From: Convivina intestini
Lineage (GTDB): Bacteria; Bacillota; Bacilli; Lactobacillales; Lactobacillaceae
Assembly (NCBI RefSeq): GCF_003096575.1
Contig: NZ_QEKT01000006.1
Location: forward strand, 1-64,000
Direction: 5' to 3'
DNA: 64,000 nucleotides
Made by a program: the position numbers and the translations under genes. Every line of letters begins with the position of its first letter. The first letter of the stretch is position 1. Under the pieces are notes generated by a model, which was not told the DNA's origin, ran no database searches, and saw only the letters and a list, made by a program, of their open reading frames with translations. Below are positions 2,972 to 41,331 of the stretch, in pieces.

Positions 2972-3472
2972 ATGAAAACTACAGACCGCATCACACAAAA
3001 AACTGATAAGTTACTCAACAATACAAATGCTAAATGGGTAGCCTTCCGGCAATTTATTTTTGCGCCTAACCTACTCACCTTTGTTATTTCGGTGGTTGTT
3101 GGTAACAGTTTTGGATCGGCCATTAAGGATTTAATTTCCACCGTCTCTGGTACAGTTAACTTTTTAATCAAATGGTCGCTATACAAGGATCATCCACTTG
3201 ATTTTGATTTAATTGCCTCTCCTTTTGGCGACTTTTTTAATAGTTTTTTGACAATGCTCTTTATCGCTGTAACAGTCTTTTACACGATTCAATTTATTAA
3301 TAAGTCCCTGATTCGTACTAAAGAAGAACAATGGGGCTTTGACCAAGCACATGAAGATGCCCTTGTATTCCAAAAGATGCAGGCGGAAAACAATAAATTG
3401 CAAGCGGAAAATGCCCAGTTACAAAAGCAAATGTTAGCTAAGCTAGATGCTCTAACCTCCCAGAAAAATTAA
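2972..3472 (+). CDS. MscL-like large-conductance mechanosensitive channel protein
   Basis: From the ATG at 2972 (AAGGAG at 2956-2961, 10 nt before) the protein has 166 residues. It matches the MscL plan: an N-terminal amphipathic segment (FRQFIFAPNLLTF), a first helix with VVVGNSFGSAIKDL like the MscL pore helix, a periplasmic loop, a second helix (FLTMLFIAVTVFYTIQFIN), and a C-terminal coiled coil with Q-A-E-N-x-x-L-Q heptads. An upstream in-frame start at 2897 lacks a good ribosome site. MscL releases solutes under osmotic downshock. The family is divergent from canonical MscL, so confidence is moderate. Confidence 0.7.
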   Translation: MKTTDRITQKTDKLLNNTNAKWVAFRQFIFAPNLLTFVISVVVGNSFGSAIKDLISTVSGTVNFLIKWSLYKDHPLDFDLIASPFGDFFNSFLTMLFIAVTVFYTIQFINKSLIRTKEEQWGFDQAHEDALVFQKMQAENNKLQAENAQLQKQMLAKLDALTSQKN

Positions 3473-31776: not shown

Positions 31777-31805
31777 TTGACAAAGGATGATAAGACCGCT
31801 AAACT
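31777..31805 (+). promoter_or_regulatory. Promoter of the leader peptide and ABC operon
   Basis: TTGACA (31777-31782) and TAAACT (31800-31805) are separated by 17 bp. The start point would be near 31812, just before the leader peptide ribosome site. Confidence 0.75.
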
Positions 31806-31827
31806 GATGGATATGTTGGAGGATATT

Positions 31828-31881
31828 ATGTCATTATTGAACACGACTAACTCAGTTTGTTTAACGCCGGGCGCTTGTTAG
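31828..31881 (+). CDS. 17-residue leader peptide with two cysteine codons
   Basis: A good ribosome site (GGAGG, 31818-31822) precedes ATG 31828. The frame reads MSLLNTTNSVCLTPGAC and TAG (31879-31881). Cysteine is codon 11 and the last codon 17. The peptide ends within RNA that can form either a hairpin of its own or an antiterminator with the downstream terminator. It precedes a cystine-type ABC transporter, so it looks like a cysteine-sensing leader. This is inferred from layout and codons. Confidence 0.65.
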   Translation: MSLLNTTNSVCLTPGAC

Positions 31882-31967
31882 CACCGGTATTTTGACGTAT
31901 ATTTTCTACACTTCAAAATCATCGTAACTAGCAAACCGCCCTAGCCTTTATCTGGGGCGGTTTTTTT
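31865..31967 (+). promoter_or_regulatory. Putative transcription attenuator of the cystine-type ABC operon
   Basis: The terminator is AAACCGCCC (31933-31941) with GGGCGGTTT (31955-31963) and a T run. The competing antiterminator pairs GGGCG and TTGTTAG (31869-31873, 31875-31881) with CGCCC and CTAGCAA (31937-31941, 31928-31934), 12 pairs with one small internal loop. A third hairpin (CCGG 31867-31870 with CCGG 31884-31887, and GCT with AGC inside) sequesters the antiterminator's 5' strand. The three states are mutually exclusive, as in leader-peptide attenuators. Confidence 0.65.
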
Positions 31968-31987: not shown

Positions 31988-32776
31988 ATGAAAAAAGTTA
32001 TTATTCTATTAGTTGGTATATTGGTCGTAATCGGTGGTATCGTTGGAATTACCCAGTATTACAGCCAAAGTCGTCAATCTGAAACAATCACCAAAGGGAC
32101 TTTAACCGTCGGTTTAGAGGGAACTTATGCCCCGTTTTCCTATCGTGAAAATGGTAAGTTAACTGGTTATGAAGTCGATGTCGCCCAAGCCGTCGGCGAT
32201 AAACTACACCTAAAAACAAAATTTGTCCAAACGAAATGGGATTCCTTAATTGCTGGTTTAGGCAGTAATCGTTACGATGTTGTCATGAACAATGTTGGGA
32301 TTACCCCTGAACGTAAAAAAACTTACCGCTTAGCAACACCTTATATTTATCCTAAAACAGTACTAATCAAGCGTAGTGATGATCAGAACCTGACCAATCT
32401 AGAGAGTATCAAGGGTAAGAAGATGGCCCAATCAACGACTTCTAATTATGGTCAAATTGCCCGCGATCATGGCGCCGAGATTGTCGCTGTTCCAGGCATT
32501 GTTGAAGCCATGAATTTAATTAATACTAACCGAGCTGAAGGTTCGCTAAACGACTTAGGGGCCTTTGCCGCTTGGCAAAAGCAAAATGCTAACGCTGATT
32601 TAACAACAGTTGATATTTCTAGTGAAGTTAAGTCACAACCGTCCGGTCCACTTCTTAAAAAAGACAACATCAAACTAGAAAAAGATATCAGTAAGGCAAT
32701 TGAAGAGTTAGAAAAAGATGGTACTTTAACTAAGTTATCAATGAAATACTTTGGTACTGACTTATCCCATGAATAA
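31988..32776 (+). CDS. Amino acid ABC transporter substrate-binding protein, cystine-type
   Basis: The 262-residue protein has an N-terminal hydrophobic segment (residues 3-24) and the family 3 binding fold: LTVGLEGTYAPFSYRENGKLTGYEVDVAQAV, then SNRYDVVMNNVGITPERKKTY. The YAPFSY and GYEVDV elements are like cystine-binding proteins (TcyA/TcyJ, FliY). It lacks a lipobox cysteine and is probably anchored by the uncleaved helix. It is the first structural gene of a four-gene operon behind the leader peptide attenuator. Confidence 0.82.
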   Translation: MKKVIILLVGILVVIGGIVGITQYYSQSRQSETITKGTLTVGLEGTYAPFSYRENGKLTGYEVDVAQAVGDKLHLKTKFVQTKWDSLIAGLGSNRYDVVMNNVGITPERKKTYRLATPYIYPKTVLIKRSDDQNLTNLESIKGKKMAQSTTSNYGQIARDHGAEIVAVPGIVEAMNLINTNRAEGSLNDLGAFAAWQKQNANADLTTVDISSEVKSQPSGPLLKKDNIKLEKDISKAIEELEKDGTLTKLSMKYFGTDLSHE

Positions 32777-32790
32777 ATAGCAAAGGAATA

Positions 32791-33498
32791 ATGCCTACTA
32801 TGTCGGAATTTTTTGAATTAGCAGTCAAATATCTACCCAGCCTACTCCAAGCAGCGCTACAGTATACGATTCCCTTGACAATAATGTCCTTTAGCTTAGG
32901 ACTAGTATTTGCCTTAGTGACTGCTTTAATTCGTCTCAGCCAATCACCCAAGAATGAATGGGCAGCCGCCTTTTTAAAAATATTAAAGGGGTTTGCGGCC
33001 TTTTATGTCTGGACTTTTCGTTCCACCCCCCTCATTGTGCAGTTATTCATTGTTTTTTACGGGCTCCCCAATGCTCATATTAGTTTTTTTGCCAATGCAT
33101 GGGTATCGGCAATCACTGTTTTCTCACTTAATACTGGTGCCTATGCTTCCGAAACCATTCGAGCGGCGATTTTATCAGTACCGCACGTTCAAAAGGAAGC
33201 CGGTCTTTCGTTAGGCATGTCTAACTGGGAAGTTTATCTTTATGTCGTTTTGCCACAAGCAGCTCGGATTTCAATTCCACCGCTAAGTAACTCCCTAATT
33301 TCTTTACTAAAGGATACTTCCTTAGCCAGCGTCATTACCATCGTGGAAATGTTTTATCTTAGTCAGCAAATTGCAGCCCAAAACTATCGTATTTTATCTA
33401 TGTATATTTTAGTCGCTATCGTTTATGCCTTTTTAACTTCGATTTTGTCAATCGGACAGCACTATTTAGAAATTTATACGTCGAGGTTTGCTCAATGA
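32791..33498 (+). CDS. Amino acid ABC transporter permease
   Basis: The 235-residue permease has about five membrane helices and the His/Glu/Gln/Arg/cystine family motifs: FRSTPLIVQLFIVFYGLP and the EAA loop QKEAGLSLGMSNWEVYLYVVLPQA. The start could be ATG 32791 or ATG 32800; the second is better spaced from AAAGGA. Its stop overlaps the ATPase start by 4 bp. Confidence 0.9.
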   Translation: MPTMSEFFELAVKYLPSLLQAALQYTIPLTIMSFSLGLVFALVTALIRLSQSPKNEWAAAFLKILKGFAAFYVWTFRSTPLIVQLFIVFYGLPNAHISFFANAWVSAITVFSLNTGAYASETIRAAILSVPHVQKEAGLSLGMSNWEVYLYVVLPQAARISIPPLSNSLISLLKDTSLASVITIVEMFYLSQQIAAQNYRILSMYILVAIVYAFLTSILSIGQHYLEIYTSRFAQ

Positions 33499-34229
33499 TT
33501 ACAGTCAATAATTTAACAAAAAAATATCCAGACCAAGTCGCGCTAGATAATATTACAACAACCTTTCCAGTCCATCAGACTACTGCTATCTTAGGACCTT
33601 CTGGTTCCGGAAAATCTACGCTACTAAGGTCACTAAATTTATTAGAACAACCCACTAGTGGCGAAATGATTTTAGATGATTTACAAGTAGATTTTAGCCA
33701 GGTCATCAGTAACCCAACAATTTTAAAAGTACGTCAACAGTTTGGCATGGTTTTTCAAGAAAAAGCTTTGTTTACCCACTTAGATGTGTTGCATAATTTA
33801 ACTGAGGGATTAATTCACGTTAAGAAATTAACCAAAACCGAGGCTAACCAGCAAGCTTTAGATCTTTTAGAACAATTTGAGATGACCGAATTAGCTGATC
33901 GCTTTCCCTATCAACTCTCCGGTGGCCAACAACAGCGAATCGCAATTATTCGTGCCTTAGCCATGCACCCCCAATATCTACTCTTAGACGAACCAACCAG
34001 TGCCTTGGATCCTGAATTAGAAGCACAAGTGTTGCGCATTCTCAGGAATTTAGCTGAGCAAAATACTTCCATGATTATTGTGACTCATAATATGTCCTTT
34101 GCCCGTCAGGTTGCCGATCGCATTTTATTTATCGATCATGGTCACTTAGGCTATCAAGGTGACACAGAAAAATTCTTTACTTCTGACAACCAACGGATTC
34201 AACAATTCTTAGGAGCAATGACTTTCTAA
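33495..34229 (+). CDS. Amino acid ABC transporter ATP-binding protein
   Basis: The 244-residue ATPase shows Walker A GPSGSGKST (about residues 34-42), the signature LSGGQQQR, Walker B YLLLDEPTSALD and the switch histidine in IIVTHNM. It powers the permease and binding protein of the same operon. Its ATG overlaps the permease stop (ATGA). Confidence 0.95.
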   Translation: MITVNNLTKKYPDQVALDNITTTFPVHQTTAILGPSGSGKSTLLRSLNLLEQPTSGEMILDDLQVDFSQVISNPTILKVRQQFGMVFQEKALFTHLDVLHNLTEGLIHVKKLTKTEANQQALDLLEQFEMTELADRFPYQLSGGQQQRIAIIRALAMHPQYLLLDEPTSALDPELEAQVLRILRNLAEQNTSMIIVTHNMSFARQVADRILFIDHGHLGYQGDTEKFFTSDNQRIQQFLGAMTF

Positions 34230-41059: not shown

Positions 41060-41331
41060 AACGCCTCATAGCTCTAAAGCTACGAGGCGTTAATAACGCG
41101 GTACCACTCGTTTTAATAGTTTCCCAAACTACTCTACCGACAGAATCATCCTTAAATAAGAGAATTCTTAGCGCGATAACGGGCGTACCCAAAATTGACT
41201 TATCATCGGGACTCGTCAATTTAACTAACTCTGAGACCATTTTCAATAATATGACGACGCTAACTTACACCAATTGTTAGCTCTCTAAGGACGTCAGGGA
41301 AAATCTACTCATCTCTTCAACGTTTGGATTG
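41060..41331 (-). promoter_or_regulatory. T-box riboswitch, specifier ATG (methionine)
   Basis: The minus strand carries the T-box motif TGGTACCGCG (41106-41097), a terminator (AACGCCTC to GAGGCGTT, 41091-41060), and a Stem I with AGTAGAT, AGAGAG and GGTGTAAG. The specifier loop GAAAATGGTCTCAGAG aligns with the known GAAA-NNN pattern and gives ATG (41240-41238). A promoter TTGACA (41366-41361), 17 bp, TACCAT (41343-41338) precedes it. Uncharged tRNA-Met would stabilise the antiterminator and turn on the hydrolase and permease. Confidence 0.88.

Follow-up and report, generated by a model that had tools for sequence, protein, structure and literature searches.

A putative ribosome-mediated, cysteine-responsive attenuator in the leader of a cystine-type ABC operon of Convivina intestini and its relatives

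Results

Organization of the leader and proposed mechanism

The leader of a cystine-type ABC operon in the Convivina intestini window (the whole 64,000-nt stretch of DNA analysed) is best explained as a ribosome-mediated transcription attenuator that would sense charged tRNA(Cys), a reading to which we assign a probability of roughly 0.87. Judged from sequence, it carries three of the features by which such an attenuator would be recognised, namely an open reading frame (ORF) led by a Shine-Dalgarno (SD) site, a conserved in-frame Cys codon and an intrinsic terminator before the genes.

The leader region occupies positions 31777-31967 of the forward strand, and the operon follows on the same strand. 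A sigma-70-type promoter (31777-31805; -35 TTGACA at 31777-31782, 17-nt spacer, -10 TAAACT at 31800-31805) matches the consensus at 10 of 12 positions, and look-alikes of the form TTGACA...TAAACT/TACACT, judged by eye, lie 5' of the leaders of most relatives. The SD sequence GGAGG (31818-31822) precedes a 17-codon leader ORF, MSLLNTTNSVCLTPGAC (31828-31881; ATG at 31828, TAG at 31879-31881), which has a counterpart in 28 further genomes. Codon 11 (TGT, 31858-31860), the proposed sensing codon, and codon 17 (31876-31878) both specify Cys. The 5' arm of the antiterminator, GGGCGCUUGUUAG (31869-31881), and its 3' arm, CUAGCAAACCGCCC (31928-31941), are complementary over 7 bp, an internal loop and 5 bp as read from the sequence, and the 3' arm overlaps the 5' arm of the intrinsic terminator (31933-31967; stem 31933-31963, then a U-tract to 31967). 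The promoter, the ribosome site, the 17-codon ORF with its two Cys codons and the antiterminator arms that the earlier note had described were all found in the sequence.

Two further hairpins complete the leader. Hairpin 1, the anti-antiterminator (31866-31888), pairs GCCGG (31866-31870) with CCGGU (31884-31888) and 31871-31872 with 31881-31882, while hairpin 2 (AUUUUGA/UCAAAAU, about 31889-31919) is enclosed by the antiterminator and nearly invariant in sequence. The fold of the 140-nt leader was 4.0 sd below that of 200 dinucleotide shuffles, none of which was equally stable. The leader had been said to form three mutually exclusive hairpins, which proved true in part: it is the GGGCG/CGCCC half, together with hairpin 1, that makes antiterminator and terminator exclusive, whereas the lower antiterminator half, UUGUUAG/CUAGCAA, is compatible with the terminator within the minimum free energy fold.

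In the proposed mechanism, the promoter would yield a leader RNA, and ribosomes would translate its ORF in the wake of RNA polymerase. When charged tRNA(Cys) is low, the ribosome would wait with codon 11 in its A site and the P-site codon starting at 31855. The leading edge of a ribosome footprint lies about 15 nt beyond the P-site codon. Here it would fall at 31870 (31855 plus about 15 nt), covering the 5' arm of hairpin 1 (31866-31870) and leaving the antiterminator arm largely free, so that 31871-31881 could pair with 31928-31939 and occupy the foot of the terminator; RNA polymerase would then enter the cystine importer genes. With ample cysteine, the ribosome would reach the stop codon and mask the antiterminator arm, or depart and let hairpin 1 form, and in either case the terminator would end transcription. 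We infer the stalling, the footprint edge and the folding order, as well as cystine as the substrate and cysteine as the signal.

The downstream operon

The first gene (31988-32776) encodes a family-3 substrate-binding protein (SBP; PF00497) of cystine type, followed by an ABC permease (32791-33498) and a TcyN-like ABC ATPase (33495-34229). Their best NCBIfam models are the cystine SBP, the cystine ABC permease and TcyN, respectively, each below its cut-off. By sequence, the closest solved structure to the SBP is 2yln/3zsf (E 1.7e-55), which we take to be the gonococcal cystine-binding protein. Because the cystine models match below their curated cut-offs, we infer cystine as the probable substrate from this homology. 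A DNA/RNA non-specific endonuclease gene (PF13930; 34229-35080, forward strand) adjoins the operon, and its start overlaps the ATPase stop.

Distribution among relatives

Twenty-nine genomes have the same arrangement 5' of the related operon: two of Convivina, seven of Leuconostoc, 13 of Fructobacillus and seven from three further genus groups, namely g39 (1, from Lactobacillaceae bacterium L1_55_11), g18 (5 with a terminator; suspected to be Weissella) and g29 (1). Leaders were gathered by a DNA search, which gave short Leuconostoc matches at the same place, and then by protein and covariance searches. The Convivina genus set comprises 2 genomes, the 95% orthologue belonging to Convivina praedatoris. 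All 13 Fructobacillus species examined have the leader. The Leuconostoc group was assigned by contigs that match the named loci L026 and L027. Among 19 Leuconostoc genomes, seven encode a close SBP orthologue and all seven of these carry the leader, which is absent from four genomes with SBP relatives of 40-45%. An order-wide covariance search of 395 genomes (model R2) recovered family members and gene-end terminators and nothing else, and a plasmid search gave no leader.

Some matches were set aside. The weak covariance matches of model R1 (E above about 1e-5) that were inspected were gene-end terminators, save one real leader (L070). Second matches in Convivina look unrelated to the leader, and one of them lies beside an apparent TPP riboswitch.

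Variation was also seen at individual loci. Lacticaseibacillus orthologues (L028-L042) are without the leader 5' of the SBP gene, and several have a AAAAGTAAGT-like box near the promoter, perhaps a protein operator. In Leuconostoc pseudomesenteroides (L026, 5' of position 3001), a deletion shortens the terminator 5' arm relative to L. falkenbergense. Because that arm is shortened and its hairpin is predicted to be weak (about -5 kcal/mol), attenuation there may be partly broken.

Conservation of the Cys codon

The conservation of a leader frame with Cys, which the earlier note had put forward as a check, was borne out: an SD-led ORF containing Cys lies ahead of the terminator in 29 of 29 leader-bearing genomes. 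In the 16 non-Fructobacillus leaders (five genus groups), Cys is the sole invariant residue after Met1 (16/16), spelled TGT ten times and TGC six times, while the next-best column reaches 12/16 and the remaining peptide and the stop position drift. The invariant Cys stands at codon 11, or at codon 13 in g39 only, where two extra codons keep the frame. The local hairpin starts 6-8 nt past the first base of this codon in most of the 16 leaders. Fructobacillus leaders could not be aligned to the others; they have Cys at codon 17, two Cys, or Cys-Cys-Cys (at codons 18-20 in seven of the 13 species), and these codons lie near the end of the ORF. Outside Fructobacillus there is mostly one Cys codon per leader, fewer than in classical leaders.

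Cys17 was also considered as a co-sensor and is not supported in that role: it occurs only in the two Convivina species, and a ribosome stalled at codon 17 would hide the antiterminator arm.

The same comparison bears on a second explanation, in which the GCACCGGUAUUUUGACGUA stretch would be the aptamer of a metabolite riboswitch or a protein-binding RNA and the ORF incidental. This stretch is indeed nearly invariant across Convivina, Leuconostoc and g39. However, Fructobacillus lacks it and part of g18 has a different sequence in its place, whereas the in-frame Cys stays; the Cys frame also persists while the distance from ATG to Cys ranges from 27 to 57 nt across leaders. In addition, an Rfam scan of the leader, both at gathering scores and with E up to 10, returned only weak matches below the gathering scores. 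An aptamer is thus considered improbable.

Conservation and covariation of the stems

Conservation of the stems had been the other proposed check on the ribosome-mediated attenuator. On a 14-sequence alignment, 96.6% of cells in the structure were paired compared with 84.3% after shuffling, and none of 500 shuffles reached the real value; since the structure guided the alignment, this result is biased towards it. Eleven pairs had changed on both sides, mostly in the terminator, where this applied to 10 of 11 pairs across the 14 sequences. Hairpin 1 contributed one compensatory pair, and hairpin 2 hardly varies, giving covariation no test of its pairing. Among relatives, hairpin 1 stays in place with its stem changed to ACCAG/CUGGU, and in g18 leaders beyond the 14-sequence alignment, for example G318 and G348, an unrelated stem lies at equal distance from the Cys codon.

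The antiterminator was examined by an arm-pairing test, in which an arm paired better with the arm of its own leader than with arms taken from other leaders (p 0.0003 over all 19 sequences; p 0.005 outside Fructobacillus), although these stem and arm p-values overstate independence because the species are related. Within Fructobacillus the preference was not significant (p 0.3), with several arms clipped by the boundaries chosen for them. Covariation is strong for the terminator and modest for hairpin 1 and the antiterminator. Stems are kept with compensatory changes and the antiterminator arms partly co-evolve; with the corrections given above, the conserved leader, Cys codon and stems argue for the ribosome-mediated attenuator that the earlier note had read from the DNA.

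Predicted effect of ribosome position on folding

For the 29 leaders, we folded nascent transcripts ending at the terminator loop, leaving out everything 5' of the ribosome edge. The mean sequestration of the terminator foot was 0.86 with the ribosome at Cys, 0.41 with it at the stop codon and 0.90 without a ribosome. This static folding supports a model in which a stall would free and a stop would mask the antiterminator in 26 of the 29 leaders, and does so weakly in the window, where the contrast between stall and stop is small (0.72 vs 0.60). Three leaders (Leuconostoc G182, the g29 leader and Fructobacillus G411) gave the opposite direction. In nascent untranslated RNA, the predicted preference for the antiterminator is as strong as with a stalled ribosome. 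Default termination without translation is hence unsupported by static folding and would need kinetic folding, in which hairpin 1 would have to form before the other stems.

In full-length RNA at equilibrium, the terminator is favoured in nearly every ribosome state. Such a preference would also be expected if the 5'-UTR terminator were constitutive and unregulated and the short ORF had arisen by chance, and a short ORF with Cys is not unusual for a single sequence: in composition-keeping shuffles of 12 dissimilar leaders, at least one Cys arose with a probability of 0.27-0.64 each. The product of these probabilities is 3e-5, to be taken as a guide only because the leaders share ancestry. However, conservation across genera extends to the Cys codon, to the covarying stems and to the distance between that codon and hairpin 1, and we regard an unregulated terminator as very unlikely.

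The remaining explanation, a T-box leader in which uncharged tRNA(Cys) would bind the RNA directly to control the operon, has a precedent in L. paracasei, where a Cys T-box precedes an ABC operon for amino acids (PMC6004538), and in a T-box-like leader before a 40% SBP relative in Leuconostoc (L053:998-1301; 85.4 bits vs a gathering score of 93), but it is hardly credible here and is refuted at the sequence level, as the T-box covariance model RF00230 gave no match at the leader even to E 10 while the same scan detected a T-box at 41080-41329, and a T-box has no need of an ORF that is SD-led and holds a Cys codon in frame. The T-box at 41080-41329 (reverse strand) scores above the gathering score; it is followed first by a 242-aa ORF resembling a hydrolase of the glutamine-amidotransferase type and next by a permease that looks APC-type.

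Discussion

A cysteine attenuator at this place would give lactic acid bacteria a cysteine sensor besides T-boxes and protein regulators. It also suggests cysteine/cystine as what the ABC operon, annotated only by weak homology, both responds to and transports. Furthermore, the one-, two- and three-codon versions of a single attenuator form a natural comparison; therefore, the number of regulatory codons required becomes a directly testable question.

A broader proposal, which we hold tentatively and at less than even odds, is that a mostly single-Cys leader system spanning Leuconostoc, Fructobacillus and Convivina replaced T-box or protein control, and that its output in g18 switched from transcription termination to translation initiation via very short Arg-Cys-stop ORFs. 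Other SBP relatives in g18 (L089-L093, L095, L097-L099 and L108) are without an obvious terminator 5' of the SBP gene and have short SD-led ORFs ending in Arg-Cys-stop (CGA TGT plus stop) some 50-100 nt ahead of the SBP start. The CGATGTT motif also occurs in L094 and L109, outside a called ORF. These ORFs may form a translational cysteine attenuator.

Several known systems resemble the Convivina leader. The uORFC-8-2 motif, 5' of cysS in Rhodobacterales, has conserved Cys codons (UGC/UGU) and an intrinsic terminator (PMC8632094). Compared by description, that alphaproteobacterial motif has tandem Cys at codons 14-15 and cysS downstream, neither of which is found at the Convivina leader, with its single sensing Cys11 and cystine ABC operon. 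In mycobacteria, cysteine-responsive polycysteine short ORFs attenuate the downstream operon (Canestrari et al. 2020, as described in PMC9094748); in that description, they differ in being leaderless and in having Cys runs. An earlier comparative study of mycobacterial Cys ORFs found no conserved terminator hairpin (PMC1262725). Closer in taxonomy are the leader-peptide attenuators of Firmicutes, namely Listeria Rli60/ilv (PMC5864092) and the His leaders (PMC2965389, PMC9413887). They use ribosome-mediated attenuation rather than a T-box or a repressor, as proposed here, and differ in responding to branched-chain amino acids or His, in the genes controlled and in lying outside Lactobacillaceae.

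The literature searched, mostly non-subscription papers, made no mention of a leader peptide with regulatory Cys codons in Lactobacillaceae, an absence that is weak evidence. The type of switch is textbook, and its cysteine version in lactic acid bacteria is apparently unreported in that literature. With the his/trp-type attenuators of E. coli, the Convivina-type leader shares a leader ORF with regulatory codons, a predicted antiterminator as alternative to an intrinsic terminator, and a biosynthetic or transport operon on the 3' side; unlike them, it uses Cys, usually as one codon rather than a run (up to three in Fructobacillus), and belongs to lactic acid bacteria.
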